From: an uncultured bacterium
GTDB lineage: Bacteria; Pseudomonadota; Gammaproteobacteria; Burkholderiales; Burkholderiaceae_E
Length of the DNA stretch: 64,000 bases
Direction of reading: 5' to 3'
Assembly (NCBI GenBank): GCA_903907905.1
Contig: CAIVPX010000052.1
Location: forward strand, 62,001 to 126,000
The stretch's first letter is position 1. Every line of letters begins with the position of its first letter. The translations under genes and the position numbers were made by a program. Positions 11,495 to 21,604 of this stretch are shown here, piece by piece. The notes under the pieces are model-generated. The model worked only from the letters and a program-made list of their open reading frames with translations. It did not search any database and was not told where the DNA came from.

Positions 11495-14400
11495 ATGCTG
11501 CCGAATGAACCGCTTCGTGCCGTCCGCCTGACCGACCGGGTTCCGGCCGTGCGCGCTGCGTCGAGCCGCCCGATCGCTGCAATGGCGCGCGCGAACGACA
11601 GACCTGCCCCACCCGACCACGGTGCGCCGAGACCGCCATCGGTCGATCTTCGCGCCGCGCGATCGGATGACCGCGACACGCTTGGGGCGGACGCCGCGGC
11701 CGACTCCGAGCCCGTCGGGGTTGCACCATCGGCGTCGCAGTCCGCCACAACCGGTAGCGGTTCGGCGCTTCAGGCCCCGATCCAATTGGCCCAGGCGTCA
11801 GGACTGGCGCCCGATCAGGTCTCCCCATTGACACGCGCGGAGCATTCCAGCGATGCCGCTTTGCCGTCCGGCGCAAGCGACCATGCGCTCGCAGCCACGG
11901 CGCTCGCGTTCGGCGCACTGCTTGCGCACAGTGCCCAGCGCAAGCCGACGCCCCCCGCCACCGTCGCGATCAAAGTCGTTGACGGCTATGTCAGCGGCGC
12001 ACAGATCTACCTCGACAGCAATCGGGACGGAATTGCCGGCCCCGATGAAGCCCTGGCGGGCACTCAAACCGACCAAACCGGAACCTTCCGCGTTCAGGAC
12101 ACCCTGTCCGGCGAAGCGTTTATTGCTGTGGGCGGTGTGAACAGCGACACCCAGGTGCCCAACCGCCTCCCCTTGCTTGCGCCACCGGGAGCGACGGTGC
12201 TGACCCCGCTCACAACCTTGGCGCACAAGCTGATGCTCGAGGGCCGGGCAAGCACCAGCGAAGCGGCTTCATCGCGCGTCCTGACCGGACTGGGCCTGCA
12301 CCTGCCCGACGGGGCGAGCCTGACCCACTACGACCCGCTGCTCGCCAACGATCTCGAGCTTCAGCGCGCAGGGGCGGCCATCGCCGTATTGCTTGACTTC
12401 GCCAGCGACGGCGACCCGACGATCATTCAAACCGTTCTGCGGCGTCTGGCGACCGTCGTCGACGACGCGGCCAGCGATGTCGAGCGCGGTGGCAACCCGG
12501 TCACGCTATCGACGGCTGAGGTGCTCGATGACCTCGTACACGGACTCGTGGCTGCACCGATCGAACGGGCTGCGCTCGCGCAGTCAATGAGTGCGATTCT
12601 GTCCGCTCACACCATGACCGAACTTTCTTCGCTGCAGGCTCAGGCGCTGAGCTACCTGGCGCTCGCCCAGCCCGACCTGTCGACACTGGATGCAAGCGAC
12701 GATATTCCCCAACTGGTGATTGTCGGCTTGGGCGCATCAACACGCGCGGCAGACGATAACGGTAGCGCCCCCGGCGATACGCTCGAGCTGGCGCTCTATC
12801 AAAACAACCAACTGCTCGGCGAGCATCGTTACACGCTCAGCGAAAGCGATATCGCCGCCCGGGAGGTGGTTCTACCCATCCCGCCCACGCTGGCCCCGGG
12901 CGCCTACCGACTCACCGCCCTTTTGAAGACCGCGCGCGGCTGGACCTCCGCCTTGGACACCGAGTATTTCGATGTCACGACCGACAATCCCCAACACCAC
13001 CCCGGCACAACGCCACCAATCGACCCGGCACCGGGCACTCCTACGATCGTGCGGTCGGGATCGGATTTCAACTATCACGACGCATTGACGAGCGCGGTAT
13101 TCTCCGAAGCCGCCTACCAGCTGACCGCGGAAATCGCGTCGGACCCGATTGGGTGGAAGCCCCTCAGCTCGATCGGCTGGCGACCGCTCGACCCCACCAG
13201 CCCCCAGCACTCCGTGCTGCAGGCCGACAATGCGCGAGCAGTCGCGGCGCGCCACGATTCTGCGGCCGAGCCCCTCAGCCAGTTCATCATCGCATTCAAG
13301 GGCAGCAGCAGCCTTGAGGACTGGGGTAACAACGTATTTCAATTCGGCTGGACCCACTACTACCAGTTGCTGATGCCGCTGGTGGCGCAGGTCATCGATG
13401 CAGCCCTCACCGCCCAGCAGGATGGGCGGCAGGTGCAGTTGATCCTCACCGGGCACAGTCTTGGGGGCGCCGCCGCGACCCTGGCGTTCGCAGACCTCTT
13501 CGCCCCGCCCGACACCAACTTCTGGAATCTTCCGGATGCCCCGCTCGGCCGCAGTGAGCGCATCCATCAGTACGGGTTGCTCGAGACCAAGTGGACAGAC
13601 GCCCAGATCGAGGCCCTTGCCGACCACGCTACGGTTTACACCTTCGGGGCCCCCAGTTTTCTGATCGACCCAAACAAACTGCCGACAGCGCCAGTCGGTC
13701 TACTTGAACGGGCGCAGCTCTTGCTGTTTTCCGGTCTCGAAGGCCTGCTGGCGGACGCACTGACCGTCCGGGACGCCGACCTGCCCCCGCTCGCCGGCTA
13801 TGCCGACCAGGCCTTCCAGTTCGAGCACATCAACTCGGACCGCTGGCGCTCGGATGACCTGGTGGCGAAGCTTGGCAGCCGTCAGCCGGGAACCGAACTC
13901 GTGATCAATCTGGACGAGGCCGTGTACGACCGCTACGGGCAGGACATCCTGTTTGGACTTGCACACGCCACCACGCCCATCGACCTCCATGGGATCGATC
14001 GATACATCGAGTCGGTGGCCCGGGCCATCACGGGCAGCGCGCTGCTCAAGTCGGACAACCCCGAAAGCGCCAAGACCCCCTTGCTACCCGAGGTCGATGC
14101 GGGGACCCCAGGCAGTGACTTTCTGCGCAACGTGTCGGCCGACGCGCTCGCTGGCGACGACATCCTGCTCGCGGAGCAGCCGGGCGATTTCCGATTCAAG
14201 GGTGGGCCGGGGGACGACCTGTACGTCGTATCCGCTTACGGCGCAAACGTCACGATCGACGGCCTCCTCGACGGCCTTGATCGACTTTATTTTGCGCTGG
14301 ACGGCGACATCAGCGCCACGAATCGCGTGGCCCCGGACAGCCACCGCGTCGACCGCGTCTTCACCATCAGCCGGGCGGGACAGACGGCCACAGCGATCGT

Positions 14401-14518
14401 CGTGGGGTGGGATGCCGACCCGTCCGGCGGCGTGAACCTACTCGACTTCGTGGGCCAAATCGTGCCCTCGTCAGACAAAAACTGGTCGTTCACCGGACCG
14501 GCCCAATCGGTTCTCTGA
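11495..14518 (+). CDS. Large class 3 lipase-like protein with RTX-like C-terminus
   Basis: 1007 residues, modular. Residues 1-130 are Ala/Arg/Pro-rich and disordered-looking. About 158-200 form a carboxypeptidase-regulatory-like strand module with a calcium-loop-like DSNRDGIAGPDE. A helical segment follows to about 400, then a beta domain. From about 540 an alpha/beta-hydrolase domain of lipase class 3 type appears, with nucleophile elbow GHSLGG (Ser655) and strand VYTFGAP. Near 900 a single RTX-like turn (GGPGDDLYVV) precedes a C-terminal beta region like those of type I secreted proteins. No Sec signal is seen. A later ATG at 11582 is possible. No TolC or ABC secretion genes are nearby. Substrate unknown. 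Confidence 0.75.
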   Translation: MLPNEPLRAVRLTDRVPAVRAASSRPIAAMARANDRPAPPDHGAPRPPSVDLRAARSDDRDTLGADAAADSEPVGVAPSASQSATTGSGSALQAPIQLAQASGLAPDQVSPLTRAEHSSDAALPSGASDHALAATALAFGALLAHSAQRKPTPPATVAIKVVDGYVSGAQIYLDSNRDGIAGPDEALAGTQTDQTGTFRVQDTLSGEAFIAVGGVNSDTQVPNRLPLLAPPGATVLTPLTTLAHKLMLEGRASTSEAASSRVLTGLGLHLPDGASLTHYDPLLANDLELQRAGAAIAVLLDFASDGDPTIIQTVLRRLATVVDDAASDVERGGNPVTLSTAEVLDDLVHGLVAAPIERAALAQSMSAILSAHTMTELSSLQAQALSYLALAQPDLSTLDASDDIPQLVIVGLGASTRAADDNGSAPGDTLELALYQNNQLLGEHRYTLSESDIAAREVVLPIPPTLAPGAYRLTALLKTARGWTSALDTEYFDVTTDNPQHHPGTTPPIDPAPGTPTIVRSGSDFNYHDALTSAVFSEAAYQLTAEIASDPIGWKPLSSIGWRPLDPTSPQHSVLQADNARAVAARHDSAAEPLSQFIIAFKGSSSLEDWGNNVFQFGWTHYYQLLMPLVAQVIDAALTAQQDGRQVQLILTGHSLGGAAATLAFADLFAPPDTNFWNLPDAPLGRSERIHQYGLLETKWTDAQIEALADHATVYTFGAPSFLIDPNKLPTAPVGLLERAQLLLFSGLEGLLADALTVRDADLPPLAGYADQAFQFEHINSDRWRSDDLVAKLGSRQPGTELVINLDEAVYDRYGQDILFGLAHATTPIDLHGIDRYIESVARAITGSALLKSDNPESAKTPLLPEVDAGTPGSDFLRNVSADALAGDDILLAEQPGDFRFKGGPGDDLYVVSAYGANVTIDGLLDGLDRLYFALDGDISATNRVAPDSHRVDRVFTISRAGQTATAIVVGWDADPSGGVNLLDFVGQIVPSSDKNWSFTGPAQSVL

Positions 14519-14692: not shown

Positions 14693-16807
14693 TCACGACG
14701 CTCGGGGCGCCACCATAGCCGACCGGCACTTTTCAAGCATCACCGCTGCAACCGGGTCCTGAAACTGCTCGACAAGTTGCGCGTAGCCAAGGGCGGCCGC
14801 ACCGAAATCGCCCTGGCTGTAAAGGTCAAAGGCTGTTTGGGTCAAGTCGCAGACACGCTTCTCAATCTCCGTGGCCCGGGTTTCCTCCGGACCGTCACGC
14901 GTTCCCAGCAACTCGAAAATGATCAGGTCGCCCTTGCGCCCCTTGACGGTGATCCGATCAATCGGCCTCATCCAGAGTCTTTCGCCAGCCTCCTTGAAGA
15001 GCGTCTGACTGACGCAGATCTGCGTGCCGTACTCCTTGTTGACCCCTTCGAGGCGAGCTGCCACGTTGACGCCATCGCCCATCACCGTGTAGCTAAGGCG
15101 CTCGGTCGAACCGATGTTGCCGACCAGCACGGCGTCCGAGTGAATACCGATTCGGACGTGGAGCGGGGGCTTGCCCTCTGAAGCGAGATGTGCGTTGAGC
15201 GAGGCCATCCGCTTCTTGCCCTTGAGCGCCGCGACGCATGCGTGATAGGCATGATGCTGATTCAGCAAGGGGGCGCCCCAGAATGCCATCACCGCATCGC
15301 CAATGAATTTGTCAACGGTGCCGGCTTCTTCCTTGATGGCATAGGTCATCAATTCAAGATAGGCCGAAACCCGGATCAACAACTCCCGAGAAGGGGTCAC
15401 TTCCGACAGCGAAGAAAAATCCTTCAGGTCGGTGAAAAGAATGGTGAGGTAGCGGCTCTCGCCCCCGATCTCGATGGGCTTTCCAGTGCTGAGCAGGTCT
15501 GTGACGAGATCGCGCGGAATGTAGGACGTGAAAGCCGATAAGGTGGATGAAAGCCTCTGCACTGCACCGGAGAGGGTCGCGATTTCATCAATCCAGCTAT
15601 GCCTCTCGCCACTCGCGCGCTTGGTATCACGCAGGCTGACGAGATTTTGAATCGAGCGGGTAATGCGTTCGAGCGGTCTGGAAATCCGGCGACTGAGAAC
15701 GTAGATGAGCAGCAACTGCAGCAGAATCGCCGCCGAGCCAAAGTAGACGATTAACTGGCCATTGCGGTTGAATGCCGCCTTGAAGTCGTTCATGGGCGTG
15801 ATCGACAGCATCGTCCACTGATTGCCAAATTCCTCGCCCAACTCCAGAAAAATCGCGACGTACTCCTCACCGCTGCCCGGGTGGCTGAATGTCAGCCGCG
15901 ACCCCGGATGCTTGGCACGCAGCGCGACGGCGAACGCGGGCAACTCGGACGCAATGGTCGACAGGGTGTTGAGTTCGATCTTCTCATTGACGGTTCGGTA
16001 GTTGTCGGCCGCATTGGAACTGGCGAACACGGTCCCGCCATCACCGTAAATCAGGTTGATCGAATTGGAGCCGAGCGCGCGCTCCAACAGAAAGCGCGAG
16101 ACCGTCTCAAGCGAAATGTCGGTTGCGACGACACCCGCCAGAGCCTCACCGCGATAGAACGGCGCCGCGATCGTGACCCCCGGCAAGCCCGTGCTCGAGA
16201 AAATGTAGGGATCAGAGACCACCATTTTTCGAGCCGCTGCCGCCTGAACGTACCAGGATCTGGATCGGGCATCGTAACGGGTGGCGTCAGACGACCTGGC
16301 CAGGGCCGCGCCGTTTTCATCGAGAAACACATAAGACTCGCGCCACTGCTCCGACGCGCCGGGCTCGATGTGGCGGATCCCGAATTTCATGGGATCGGTC
16401 ACCGTGACATCCTGAATCCTTGAACCGGGCTGAAGACGCCGAACCTGGACGAATCCGCCATCCTGCAGCCCAACATAGGACGACAGACTGCTATCTTTCT
16501 GGCTGAGGAGCGACAGCAAGTAGCCAGACACCCTGTCACCGCTTAGAAAATCAGGGTTCAGCGAGCCAAGCGCCGACGCGGACAGAATCAGGCGCCGCCC
16601 CGGATTGATCAATTCCCGTGCGCTGGAGCGCATTTCGTTCGTAAAGCGATCCATCAGGCTGTCTGCGGTCGCGACGGCGATGCGGGCGTTGGACACGAAA
16701 ACGAAGCCGACAAGCGCCAGAAACGATGGGACCACCAGCAGCGCGAACACGATCATGATGCTGGGGCCGAACCGGACGCGGCGACGAGTCGATTCCTGAT
16801 GACTCAT
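14693..16807 (-). CDS. Membrane sensor adenylate cyclase (dCache-HAMP-class III cyclase)
   Basis: 704 residues. Transmembrane helix about 17-39; large extracytoplasmic double-Cache sensor about 45-345 (DARSRSWYVQA signature); second helix about 352-371; HAMP about 372-425; class III cyclase domain about 450-630. The catalytic set is complete: metal Asp460 and Asp504, Lys500 (DKFIGDAV), Thr574 in YTVMGDGVN, Asn581 and Arg585. The Lys plus Thr pair predicts ATP, so cAMP rather than cGMP. About 70 residues follow the catalytic domain. It is the last gene of a three-gene set with a phosphodiesterase and a CNB protein, suggesting a self-contained signalling unit. The ligand of the Cache domain is unknown. 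Confidence 0.92.
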   Translation of the reverse strand: MSHQESTRRRVRFGPSIMIVFALLVVPSFLALVGFVFVSNARIAVATADSLMDRFTNEMRSSARELINPGRRLILSASALGSLNPDFLSGDRVSGYLLSLLSQKDSSLSSYVGLQDGGFVQVRRLQPGSRIQDVTVTDPMKFGIRHIEPGASEQWRESYVFLDENGAALARSSDATRYDARSRSWYVQAAAARKMVVSDPYIFSSTGLPGVTIAAPFYRGEALAGVVATDISLETVSRFLLERALGSNSINLIYGDGGTVFASSNAADNYRTVNEKIELNTLSTIASELPAFAVALRAKHPGSRLTFSHPGSGEEYVAIFLELGEEFGNQWTMLSITPMNDFKAAFNRNGQLIVYFGSAAILLQLLLIYVLSRRISRPLERITRSIQNLVSLRDTKRASGERHSWIDEIATLSGAVQRLSSTLSAFTSYIPRDLVTDLLSTGKPIEIGGESRYLTILFTDLKDFSSLSEVTPSRELLIRVSAYLELMTYAIKEEAGTVDKFIGDAVMAFWGAPLLNQHHAYHACVAALKGKKRMASLNAHLASEGKPPLHVRIGIHSDAVLVGNIGSTERLSYTVMGDGVNVAARLEGVNKEYGTQICVSQTLFKEAGERLWMRPIDRITVKGRKGDLIIFELLGTRDGPEETRATEIEKRVCDLTQTAFDLYSQGDFGAAALGYAQLVEQFQDPVAAVMLEKCRSAMVAPRAS

Positions 16808-16862
16808 GCACGCCCCACGCGGTCAATGGATACGCGGCGACAAACCATGAAAGGCGCAAGGC

Positions 16863-17699
16863 TCACACCGCGTCCCCTGACTGCCTGAGCTCGCGCAGTT
16901 GTTCCGCGACCATTTCGTCGATGCCAAGTCGACGGCTCGCCGGACTGGAAAACACTCCGGCGTATTGCAGGAAGTTGATGCGCGCCCGGGGATCCTCAAG
17001 CATGCTGACCCGGTGAGGGGCTGTTTTTCGCCATTCGGCCAGCAAGGATGCTGTCCGCCTCGCGCCGATATCGCGGAAACAACTCGGCAAAATATCCGCC
17101 TCTTCCACCAGGACACCCAGACAGGCAGGGTTCCCGATGTCGAATGGGCGACCGACCATCTTCGCATGATGGTGCGGAACCTTGCCCGGCTCGGTCATGA
17201 GGATCAAGCGCCCGATCACCCGCTGATCCGCCTTGCTGACCCGATGCTTCTTCATGAAAGGTTCAAGGTGCTTCACCGCCCTGGACTCAAGTTCCTCCGG
17301 AAACCGGTTGACCGTACCATCGTGAAGCAGATCGTGCGCAAGCGTGGCCAGCAGAGCCAGCCACTCGACATGGGAAGGCGTTTCGTCCGGGACTGAAGCG
17401 ATCTCGCGGTTTACAAGGAGCAAGACCGTCAACCCGACCAGCGTGTCGGCGATATGCAAGCGGTTGTGGTAGGCCGGCTCGTCTCCGGATCGGGCAAGTG
17501 CCTGCCCGCCAAGTTCGATGAACTCGGCCAGTTCACGGCAACAAGACTCAAGCGCCCTGTCGCGGGCTGACAGCCCACTCAAATTGGCGCGCCCGAGTTG
17601 GGTCAGGCATCCTTCCAGTACCCGCGGCAACCCAGGCCACCCGGCTCCCCACGCCGACTCCAGGTTGAGGTAGATCGCGTGAAGGTCTTGCAATGTCAT
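16863..17699 (-). CDS. Class I-type 3',5'-cyclic nucleotide phosphodiesterase
   Basis: 278 residues, HD-superfamily metal hydrolase. The motif HDLLHDGTVNRF (His122-Phe133) fits the class I cyclic nucleotide phosphodiesterase signature exactly (H-D-x-x-H-x-G-x2-N-x-F). YHNRLH (His78, His82) and EEADILP (Asp202) supply the catalytic His and the remaining metal ligands, matching His160, His164, His200, Asp201, His204 and Asp318 of human PDE4. Gln245 may be the purine-clamp glutamine. A plain HD-domain label would miss this. It lies 55 bases before the adenylate cyclase gene and 25 bases after the CNB gene, so cAMP hydrolysis is the natural inference. No membrane segment or signal peptide; cytoplasmic. 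Confidence 0.8.
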   Translation of the reverse strand: MTLQDLHAIYLNLESAWGAGWPGLPRVLEGCLTQLGRANLSGLSARDRALESCCRELAEFIELGGQALARSGDEPAYHNRLHIADTLVGLTVLLLVNREIASVPDETPSHVEWLALLATLAHDLLHDGTVNRFPEELESRAVKHLEPFMKKHRVSKADQRVIGRLILMTEPGKVPHHHAKMVGRPFDIGNPACLGVLVEEADILPSCFRDIGARRTASLLAEWRKTAPHRVSMLEDPRARINFLQYAGVFSSPASRRLGIDEMVAEQLRELRQSGDAV

Positions 17700-17724
17700 G
17701 GATCAATCGATTTGTTTTGGACCG

Positions 17725-18135
17725 TCAGACTGCACGCGTTCGCAGGCGCTTGTGCATGCCCTGTTGCAGCAGTAGCGCTTCGACAACTGGCGTCATCACA
17801 GGCGACTGGGCTTCGAGCATGAACTTGAGATTATCCTCGGCAATCAATTGACGGACCGTCTGCTCGCGGGCTCTCAATGTCGTACCGCGAACGCCTGCTG
17901 GCACGATGGCCTGCTCGCCGAACGACTGACCCGCCCCCAAAGTTGCGAACCCCTGGCCCGACTTCGCATCGAGCATTTCGACGGTACCGCTCATCGCCAG
18001 TGAGTTTGCCCGACTTGTCATGCTCGGTGCTGGAGGAGAGTAGGGATCGGCCATGCCTACTTCGTGCAGCCGATCGACATCGACCCAAAAACTCGCGGCC
18101 ACTTGCGGGGGCGTTGTCGCAGTCACACCCGGCAC
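17725..18135 (-). CDS. Cyclic nucleotide-binding (CNB) domain protein, short N-terminus
   Basis: 136 residues from a GTG at 18135. Residues about 48-130 look like a CNB domain: SGTVEML strand, LGAGQSFGE turn, phosphate-binding cassette FGEQAIVPAGVRGTTLRA with its Arg, then a C-terminal helix. No DNA-binding or kinase domain follows, so it may act as a stand-alone cAMP sensor subunit. The first 45 residues do not resemble the usual opening strands, and an in-frame TGA at 18169-18171 blocks extension. Either the N-terminus is divergent or the 5' part has been lost. Start sites are weak (alternative ATG at 18054). First gene of the cAMP cassette. Confidence 0.6.
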   Translation of the reverse strand: MPGVTATTPPQVAASFWVDVDRLHEVGMADPYSPPAPSMTSRANSLAMSGTVEMLDAKSGQGFATLGAGQSFGEQAIVPAGVRGTTLRAREQTVRQLIAEDNLKFMLEAQSPVMTPVVEALLLQQGMHKRLRTRAV

Positions 18136-19579: not shown

Positions 19580-20572
19580 ATGTCCGATCGCCGACGCCAT
19601 CTGCGCACCCTGCTCGCCCTCGCACTGGGTGCGCCGGCCCTCCGCTCGCCGGCTCAGGAACCCTGGCCGGCCAAGCCGGTCAAAATGATCATTCCCTTCC
19701 CGCCAGGACAGGCCACCGACATCTTCGGCCGCGCCTTCGCCGAGCGCCTCGCCCGCATGTGGGGCCAAGGGGTGACGATCGAGAATCGGGCAGGTGCAAG
19801 CGGCATCATCGGCATGGAGGCGATCAAGCAGGCCGCCCCCGACGGCTACACGCTCGGCATGGTGTCCAGTGGCCCGTTGGCCATCAACCCGTCGGTGTTT
19901 TCCAAGCTGCCCTACGACCCGGTTCGAGACTTCACGCCCATCTCCCTCGCGTTCGTGGCCCCCCTGGTGCTGCTGGTCAACCGTGACCTGCCGGTTCGAA
20001 GCGTGCAGGATTTGCTGGCCCTGATGCGCCGATCGCCGGGCGGGCTGAGCTATGCCTCGGGCGGGCCGGGCACCTCCCAGCATCTGGCCTGCGAACTGTT
20101 CAAAATGGCCACCGACACCTTTGCGGTTCACATCCCCTACAAGGGCAGCGGGCCCGCACTGACCGATCTCATCGGCGGGCAGGTGCAGTTCATGGTGGAC
20201 AGCGTATCGGCCGCGCTCACACACATTCAGGCGGGCCGGGTGCGCGCACTGGCGGTGACCAGTCTTCAGCGCAATACCGCGCTGCCCGATGTCCCGGCTC
20301 TCGCGGAAACCGACGTCCCGGGCCTGGCGAAGTTCGAGGCGGTGGGCTGGGCCGGATTGGTGGGCCCGGCCGGTATGCCCCAGACGGTTGTTGACAAGGT
20401 TTCGCGCGACTTCGCCTCGGTGCTGCGCGATGACGCCGTCAATCAACGCGTGACCCAGAGCGGGTCGGTGGTTCGCGCCCTGCCGGGCAGCGAGTTCACG
20501 CAATTCATCCGAAGCGAGGTCATCAAGTGGGGCGCGGCTGCCAAGGCCTCGGGCACCCGTCTGGATGCTTGA
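19580..20572 (+). CDS. Bug-family (TctC-like) periplasmic solute receptor
   Basis: 330 residues with an Arg-rich, then hydrophobic export signal (cleavage likely after RSPAQ). Family marks: WPAKPVKMIIPFPPGQATDI at the mature start, ENRAGASGIIG loop, HIPYKGSGPALTDLIGG. First gene of the plus-strand catabolic island, directly before a second Bug receptor and the lyase/hydro-lyase genes, so its ligand may be the di- or tricarboxylate those enzymes process. It is divergent from the PanE-like gene with a 77-base spacer that should carry both promoters. Confidence 0.93.
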   Translation: MSDRRRHLRTLLALALGAPALRSPAQEPWPAKPVKMIIPFPPGQATDIFGRAFAERLARMWGQGVTIENRAGASGIIGMEAIKQAAPDGYTLGMVSSGPLAINPSVFSKLPYDPVRDFTPISLAFVAPLVLLVNRDLPVRSVQDLLALMRRSPGGLSYASGGPGTSQHLACELFKMATDTFAVHIPYKGSGPALTDLIGGQVQFMVDSVSAALTHIQAGRVRALAVTSLQRNTALPDVPALAETDVPGLAKFEAVGWAGLVGPAGMPQTVVDKVSRDFASVLRDDAVNQRVTQSGSVVRALPGSEFTQFIRSEVIKWGAAAKASGTRLDA

Positions 20573-20611
20573 ATCTCGCAAGCGGCAAGCCGACCCCCAC
20601 CGGGAGCGACC

Positions 20612-21604
20612 ATGACCCGCCGATCCCTCATTCAGTTCAGCGCCGCATGGGCACTGGCCTCGACCAGTGCCCTGGCGCCATGGCTGTCGCACGCGCTCGC
20701 TCAGACCCGCTTTCCCGACCGTCCGATTCGAATCATCGTGCCCTACTCGGCGGGGGGCGGTGGTGACATCCTGGCTCGCGCGATGGCGCCTCGCCTGGCC
20801 GAGCGCCTCGGCGTGCCGGTGGTGGTCGAGAACCGCGCCGGCGCAGGCGGCAATCTCGGCACCGAGCATGGCCTCAAGTCACCCGCGGACGGCTACACGC
20901 TGGTGGCAATCAGCAGCACCTACCCCTGCCAGGCGGTGGTGTCCAGAAAGCTGGGTTTCGACCCTCTGCACGACTACACGCCGGTGTCGCTCATGTCAGC
21001 CGGGCCCGCCGTACTCGCCATGGGTAAACACGTGGGCGTGCAGAACATGGCGGGATTCATCGAACTGGCCCGGCGCGCGCCCGGCTCGCAGGCCTACGGG
21101 TCGGCGGGCGTCGGCTCGCAGGCTCAGTTTGCTACCGAACTGTTTGCCTATCTGGCGGGTGTCCAGCTCAATCACATTGCCTACAAGGGCACCTCGCAAG
21201 CCTTCAACGACCTGCTGGGCGGAAGCATCGCCATTGCCATCACCACACCCACCTTCATTACGCCCTTCATCCGGAGTGGCCGCGCCCTGGGGCTGGCCGT
21301 CTCGGGCCCCAAGCGGCTGCCGCAATTGCCTGAGGTGCCCACCTTTGCCGAGGTGGGGCTGGCCGACTACGAATACACCGCCTGGAATGCCCTGATCGCG
21401 CCAAAAGGGCTGCCCGCCGAGGTGCTGGCGCGGCTCAATCTCGAAATCAACCACGTGCTGTCGACACGAGAAGTGACGGAGAAGATCATTGCCGACGGCG
21501 TCACCCCCGTGGGAGGCCCGCCGGAAACGCTATCCAGACAAATCCGGGCCGACATTCTGCGCTGGCAGGAAGTCGCCCGTGTTGCCAACATCAGGGAAGA
21601 ATGA
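20612..21604 (+). CDS. Bug-family (TctC-like) periplasmic solute receptor
   Basis: 330 residues. The N-terminus TRRSLIQFSAAWAL has adjacent arginines and a hydrophobic stretch, so Tat or Sec export is possible. Mature start FPDRPIRIIVPYSAGGGGDI, ENRAGAGGNLG loop and HIAYKGTSQAFNDLLGG are typical of the family. It stands 39 bases after another Bug receptor and 3 bases before the ICL-family lyase, so it is very probably in one operon with the lyase and LeuCD-like genes. Confidence 0.93.
   Translation: MTRRSLIQFSAAWALASTSALAPWLSHALAQTRFPDRPIRIIVPYSAGGGGDILARAMAPRLAERLGVPVVVENRAGAGGNLGTEHGLKSPADGYTLVAISSTYPCQAVVSRKLGFDPLHDYTPVSLMSAGPAVLAMGKHVGVQNMAGFIELARRAPGSQAYGSAGVGSQAQFATELFAYLAGVQLNHIAYKGTSQAFNDLLGGSIAIAITTPTFITPFIRSGRALGLAVSGPKRLPQLPEVPTFAEVGLADYEYTAWNALIAPKGLPAEVLARLNLEINHVLSTREVTEKIIADGVTPVGGPPETLSRQIRADILRWQEVARVANIREE

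Follow-up and report, generated by a model that had tools for sequence, protein, structure and literature searches.

A conserved CNB1-CNB2-phosphodiesterase module in Burkholderiales and its hybrid CNB reading frame in an uncultured relative

The idea that a cyclase, a cyclic nucleotide receptor, and a phosphodiesterase (PDE) can be encoded together is already known. At the cyaD1/clr/spdA locus of Sinorhizobium meliloti, a receptor-type class III cyclase is accompanied by a cyclic AMP (cAMP) receptor that contains a cyclic nucleotide-binding (CNB) domain and by an associated PDE gene (PMC4222275). Here, we describe a comparable cassette in a 64,000-nucleotide stretch of DNA from an uncultured bacterium of the Burkholderiaceae_E (contig CAIVPX010000052.1, positions 62,001 to 126,000; hereafter, “the window”). 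As an initial annotation of this DNA reported, the cassette has three neighboring same-strand genes, for a CNB-related open reading frame (ORF), a PDE, and an adenylate cyclase, with gaps of 25 bases (CNB ORF to PDE) and 55 bases (PDE to cyclase). In S. meliloti, however, the receptor is a DNA-binding protein of the CRP type, the PDE is a class III metallophosphoesterase, and there is no stand-alone CNB pair (PMC4222275). In the window, the CNB ORF has no helix-turn-helix domain and the PDE belongs to class I, so the locus is not of the cyaD1/clr/spdA type.

Other known systems share some of these parts. In the CAPE proteins of basal plants, a class III adenylate cyclase and a class I PDE are fused (PMC5159850, PMC8115329). 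The window encodes the same two enzyme classes, but in a bacterium, from separate genes, and together with CNB proteins, whereas CAPE is one polypeptide. The cyclic GMP (cGMP) cluster of Rhodospirillum centenum (RC1_3785-gcyB-gcyC-cgrA) combines subunits of a class III cyclase with a CNB receptor of the CRP type; it differs from our locus in its use of cGMP, in having a transcription factor as the receptor, and in having no PDE as described (PMC4681086). Eukaryotic class I PDEs (PDE3, PDE4, and TcrPDEC1) resemble the window’s PDE in their catalytic fold, their metal ligands, and the proposed logic of allosteric control. Unlike them, the window’s PDE is a single catalytic domain with a shorter loop, its candidate regulators are separate proteins, and it may have an arginine in place of the purine-binding glutamine. 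Class I PDEs are commonly described as enzymes of eukaryotes, and we know of no assigned job for CNB proteins that lack an output domain. In our searches of the open-access literature, a bacterial class I PDE accompanied by a stand-alone pair of a pseudo-CNB and a CNB protein did not turn up.

We found that the PDE belongs to a conserved betaproteobacterial module in which two small CNB genes, CNB1 and CNB2, lie next to the PDE gene. Taken as a whole, our explanation is that the window carries a species-specific and partly decayed version of this module, with a PDE that would be regulated by the CNB proteins. We propose this explanation tentatively, at a little short of an even chance. The features of the cassette are listed in Table 1.

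Table 1. Features of the cassette, in window coordinates.
Feature	Coordinates	Strand	Basis
Class III adenylate cyclase, dCache-HAMP, 704 amino acids	14693..16807	-	PF00211, matches to solved structures, catalytic residues
Class III cyclase catalytic domain, cyclase residues 454-631	14915..15448	-	Pfam, structures, residues
dCache/PDC sensor domain match, cyclase residues 158-318	15854..16336	-	dCache_1, MCP-like_PDC_1, structures of PctA/PctB/PctC
Class I cyclic nucleotide PDE, 278 amino acids	16863..17699	-	Profile, fold, metal ligands
Hybrid ORF of 136 amino acids, fused remnant of tandem CNB1 and CNB2	17725..18135	-	Comparison with relatives
CNB2-like C-terminal part with phosphate-binding cassette FGEQAIVPAGVRGTT	17725..17985	-	About 53% identity to congener CNB2, residues 47-133
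CNB1 continuation, out of frame (breakpoint slightly downstream)	17987..18036	-	SGKLTGDER in another frame
CNB1-like N-terminus, in frame (VAASFWVDVDRLHEVGMADPYS), codons 1-33	18037..18135	-	45-59% identity to CNB1 over 22-33 residues

With a seven-row alignment of PDEs as the query, a scan of 84,980 species genomes identified 54 PDE loci. (With the single PDE sequence from the window as the query, the same scan found nothing.) These loci are mainly from freshwater Comamonadaceae and other Burkholderiales, including sequenced strains of Limnohabitans. CNB1, CNB2, and the PDE are co-directional in 23 of the 54 loci. In about half of these 23, CNB1 and CNB2 overlap by 4 bases, and in four of them CNB2 overlaps the PDE, again by 4 bases. 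Eight further loci have CNB genes in other arrangements around the PDE; six of these eight have the PDE and then a single fused CNB2-CNB1 protein of roughly 390-396 amino acids. If we add L064, which is cut by a contig end, and L088, which has CNB2 only, then CNB genes are beside the PDE in 33 of the 54 loci. One of the loci (L058:5995-8608) has two convergent PDE genes, and the second has its own CNB1-CNB2 pair, which makes it a duplicated cassette. Also, the locus titled Singulisphaera (L091) carries a cassette of the Burkholderiales type, and the locus titled Bordetella parapertussis (L080) is identical to one of the congeners discussed below (G003); these are probably mislabelled or misbinned metagenome-assembled genomes.

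The sequences of the two CNB proteins suggest different capabilities. In CNB2, the phosphate-binding Gly-Glu and Arg are invariant in 35 of 35 aligned rows, and among solved structures the nearest are the regulatory CNB domains of PKG and PKA. CNB1 has kept the cassette’s Glu but shows no conserved Arg at the corresponding position. CNB2 is therefore predicted to be binding-competent, and CNB1 is predicted to be degenerate, mostly without the phosphate-binding arginine. As the initial annotation had noted for the window’s ORF, no output domain is present, but its question of what the effector might be is better posed for a two-protein module that travels with the PDE. Because the genes are tightly linked and because the pair lacks any output domain, we suggest that the pair regulates the PDE. 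More specifically, CNB1 and CNB2 might form a pseudo-CNB/CNB heterodimer that places a bacterial class I PDE under the control of cAMP, with varied sensor cyclases alongside; we consider this possible but somewhat improbable.

In the window, there is no intact CNB gene, so the initial description of a CNB-domain protein needs to be revised. The ORF at 18135-17725 matches only positions 25-86 of Pfam’s cNMP_binding model, with 21.3 bits (below the cut-off of 27.5), as compared to 71.6 bits for the intact CNB2 of a congener. Codons 1-33 resemble the start of CNB1 in other loci, such as those of Limnohabitans (with identity of up to 59% over 22 residues, or 55% over 31). The CNB1 sequence SGKLTSDER is found in the window as SGKLTGDER, in a different frame, at 18013-17987, and about 10 bases past this motif the DNA again matches CNB2 in the first frame. 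Codons 34-47 are out of frame, as their codon-position composition confirms, and from codon 48 on the ORF corresponds to the C-terminal part of CNB2. Relative to the relatives, about 440 bases are absent from this region. On this comparison, the window’s CNB ORF is a hybrid in which the start of CNB1 is joined to the end of CNB2 through a frame change and the missing bases. The hybrid keeps the phosphate-binding cassette (G73, E74, and R83), and the first strands of the CNB2 beta-roll are absent. A structural model of the hybrid alone had a mean predicted local distance difference test score (pLDDT) of just 61.8, with values under 50 at residues 1-11 and 26-41. It is doubtful that so truncated a hybrid still supports sensing in this genome: the cAMP-sensing arm has probably been lost or altered, while the cyclase and the PDE look intact.

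The ratio of nonsynonymous to synonymous substitution (dN/dS) in the CNB2 part of the hybrid is about 0.22, which is similar to the value for the cyclase (dS is saturated). Since constraint has been retained, either the change is recent or it is an assembly error. The lesion could also be a variant from a minor strain; if it is such a variant or an assembly error, the species would really have an intact CNB1-CNB2-PDE-cyclase cassette. This is a serious possibility, although we lean against it. The genome was assembled in 190 contigs, and both halves of the ORF keep the constraint and the codon-position composition of intact genes, which is what an artificial or very recent break would leave. 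On the other hand, an artifact would require two separate changes (of one base and of about 440 bases) that nevertheless leave the ORF open, and the large neighboring genes in the window are intact. Furthermore, neither the missing part of CNB1 nor a second CNB copy was found elsewhere in the assembly.

The window’s PDE scores 20.2 bits against Pfam’s PF00233 (PDEase_I), which is below the gathering cut-off of 24.8. Some of its homologues are above the cut-off (31.4 bits for L065 and 27.4 bits for L096), and a profile built from 44 homologues matches class I PDEs in the Protein Data Bank (PDE8A at E = 1.3e-8 and Trypanosoma cruzi PDEC at 1.4e-8). The AlphaFold2 model of the window’s PDE has a pLDDT of 95.9, and the top matches of this model in Foldseek and VIA-align are all class I PDEs, with a VIA Z of 22.1 over 259 residues for PDE3A and 21.9 for PDE4D. 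Across all 44 homologues, six residues (H78, H82, H122, D123, H126, and D202) do not vary. These make up the HNxxH and HDxxH motifs and the downstream Asp, with H82, H122, D123, and D202 as the metal ligands and H78 as the general acid; D202 pairs with the Asp of known class I PDEs in the profile alignment. The profile, the conserved residues, and the predicted fold all identify the hydrolase as a PDE of class I (the animal type), in line with the initial assignment to the cyclic nucleotide PDE family.

Two further residues bear on which nucleotide the PDE acts on. R240 and F243 (R240-x-x-F243) are invariant among the homologues and may occupy the position of the Gln-x-x-Phe of class I enzymes. 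R240 falls on PDE4D’s purine-binding glutamine in one of three alignments (the PDE4D reference sequence is identical to the PDB entries), and the other two disagree; two MAFFT modes put the C-terminal half of the PDE in the wrong place relative to PDE4D. If R240 is at the glutamine position, then the choice of substrate may differ from that of known class I enzymes. The PDE might then act on another cyclic nucleotide, and the genes would be neighbors without forming a single cAMP loop. There is a precedent at the S. meliloti cyaD1 locus, where hydrolysis of cAMP had been anticipated for SpdA but the enzyme was instead shown to be a PDE for 2',3'-cyclic nucleoside monophosphates (2',3'-cNMPs), so caution is needed when reading function from linkage (PMC4222275). 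Nevertheless, this alternative seems unlikely, given the class I fold, the complete metal site, the repeated linkage to cyclases, and the adenylate-type residues (K500 and T574) of the window’s cyclase. We take cAMP to be the probable substrate.

The cyclase’s catalytic domain is above the cut-off for PF00211 (Guanylate_cyc; E = 2.5e-16 and 60.2 bits versus a cut-off of 21.9) and has bacterial class III cyclases among its solved-structure matches (2w01 at 8e-28 and CyaB, 3r5g, at 2e-22). Assigned by motif, D460, D504, K500, T574, N581, and R585 are the metal-binding, adenine-selecting, and transition-state residues. Lysine and threonine at the substrate positions of class III cyclases correspond to ATP as the substrate. 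The N-terminal part matches the dCache domains of chemoreceptors (the solved structures of PctA, PctB, and PctC); it is above the cut-off for MCP-like_PDC_1 (9.4e-12) and slightly below it for dCache_1 (4.5e-11 and 43.2 bits versus 45). The description of a dCache-HAMP adenylate cyclase with a full catalytic set holds, except that the Pfam match to HAMP is weak.

This cyclase is the only match to PF00211 at E = 1e-6 in the entire genome of the window, and a search of that genome for class I adenylate cyclases found none. On another contig, the genome encodes a CRP-like regulator whose cNMP-binding motif (FGEMSLIDDEPRSAS) is intact. For these reasons, the cyclase’s product is likely the cell’s general cAMP rather than an insulated pool, which argues against the insulated local circuit that had been proposed.

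The cyclase’s profile matches also raise the possibility of an anti-phage system. Pycsar systems combine a cyclase with the class III fold and a CNB effector (PMC11224242), and the window’s cassette resembles them in having a class III-fold cyclase and a CNB protein. The PycC profile from PADLOC (PDLC00734) matches the window’s cyclase at 1.1e-32, and TIR-effector profiles from PADLOC weakly match the CNB part. However, these matches follow from the common class III cyclase and CNB folds. None of the three genes encodes a TIR or transmembrane effector domain, the cyclase has a periplasmic dCache sensor as well as adenylate-type residues, and a PDE is present. We rejected a Pycsar-like system as extremely improbable. 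The PDLC00734 model itself seems to hold a CNB domain and then a cyclase domain (as judged from the window’s cyclase and L050:6547-6903), so generic sensor cyclases can score as Pycsar cyclases.

Class III cyclases are found in the examined flanks (within about 6 kb) of 15 of the 54 PDE loci, and an adjacent cyclase is seen in L059, L064, L065, L066, L085, L088, L093, L096, L097, L104, L106, and L107, as well as in the congeners. About 0.4 would be expected by chance, from the density of cyclases in the genomes of relatives (26 in 34 Mb) and the 496 kb of flanks; this background is rough, as some Limnohabitans carry 3-5 cyclases per genome. The cyclases are of different types, including CHASE2 (L059, with the order CNB1-CNB2-PDE-cyclase), receiver-cyclase (L085 and L097), and dCache (L093, L096, L104, and the congeners). 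(In L059, we suspected a PDE-cyclase fusion from an overlapping long frame, but the frames differ.) In L088:4153-6774, an alpha/beta-hydrolase-cyclase, CNB2, and the PDE are co-directional in that order, without CNB1, which is the closest match to the make/sense/destroy order that was initially described. Because the type of cyclase varies between loci, we regard the cyclase as the changing partner and the CNB pair as the constant one, even though about 20 PDE loci lack CNB genes.

In three congeners (G001, G003, and G004), the cyclase and the PDE are convergent neighbors. The congener cyclase, where complete, is 60% identical to the window’s, but the PDEs are only 34-36% identical. The CNB gene in these genomes is 53-54% identical to residues 47-133 of the window’s ORF. 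In G003 and G004, a helicase gene and an exporter gene flank tandem genes for CNB1 (166 amino acids) and CNB2 (about 119 amino acids); the G001 contig begins at CNB2, so any tandem partner is beyond view. A fourth congener (G002) had no match to the PDE or CNB proteins and has a more distant cyclase. Among the congeners, then, the adjacency of cyclase and PDE is conserved, and the order, the strand, and the linkage to CNB differ. Conserved synteny thus extends to CNB1-CNB2-PDE and to nearby cyclases, but not to the CNB-PDE-cyclase order, which is not seen in the three congeners that have the genes. This difference in order would fit a chance adjacency of three unrelated genes, but with CNB genes beside the PDE in so many loci and cyclases far above the chance expectation, we consider chance to be very improbable. 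In trees of the PDE and of CNB2, support at the window’s branch is weak, so neither horizontal transfer nor vertical descent is favored.

The proposed contact of CNB1 and CNB2 with the PDE comes from gene linkage, and several observations weigh against regulation of the PDE by these proteins. About 20 of the loci have a PDE without adjacent CNB genes (some are truncated by contig ends), and in the genus g9, the PDE has no adjacent CNB gene and the genome likewise gave no match to CNB2. In the 54 loci, we found no protein that fuses CNB and PDE. In G001, G003, and G004, the CNB pair is on other contigs, apart from the cyclase and the PDE, and the PDE tree sets the window’s PDE apart from those of the congeners, albeit with weak support. 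Finally, if R240 replaces the purine-binding glutamine, then the substrate may not be cAMP.

Alternatively, the CNB pair could be a receptor for a separate target, such as chemoreceptors or histidine kinases, and the PDE would only end the signal. Genes for methyl-accepting chemotaxis proteins flank the cassette in eight loci (L055, L057, L058, L070, L071, L072, L074, and L075), and kinase and receiver-cyclase genes are present in L085 and L097. But such neighbors differ by lineage, while the CNB genes stay with the PDE and often overlap it, so we view a separate target as rather unlikely. The flanking chemotaxis genes suggest a link between the CNB/PDE cassettes of these freshwater Comamonadaceae and chemotaxis.

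If the CNB pair does control the PDE, then the module would most likely work as follows. An extracellular ligand would act on the dCache cyclase, which would make cAMP; CNB2 would bind cAMP, with CNB1 as its structural partner; and the PDE would be tuned by the pair, acting as its detachable regulatory subunit. The result would be a feedback-controlled level of cAMP, with wider output via the CRP-like regulator that is encoded elsewhere. In the window’s genome, CNB1 and CNB2 have collapsed into one ORF, with the sensing arm probably lost or altered. The three genes in the window may be co-transcribed; a scan for promoters and terminators found nothing above chance.

On either side of the cassette are genes of other kinds. 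A plus-strand gene at 11495-14518 encodes a 1007-amino-acid protein with a class 3 lipase domain and converges on the cyclase gene at a distance of 174 bases. At 19580-21604, also on the plus strand, two tandem genes resemble solute receptors of the tripartite-tricarboxylate type (TctC/Bug) and adjoin isocitrate-lyase-like and LeuC/LeuD-like genes, as read from the sequence.

The putative CNB1-CNB2-PDE operon of freshwater Burkholderiales, conserved and tightly spaced and present in sequenced Limnohabitans strains, needs only three small proteins to make two puzzles (bacterial class I PDEs and CNB proteins without an output domain) approachable. Should the CNB pair prove to control the PDE, these bacteria would have a dedicated cAMP homeostat beyond the cyclase/CRP model, and the module would parallel, in prokaryotes, the allosteric PDEs known from eukaryotes. 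The window is also a probable example of how such a module can lose its sensing arm and yet keep intact enzymes.

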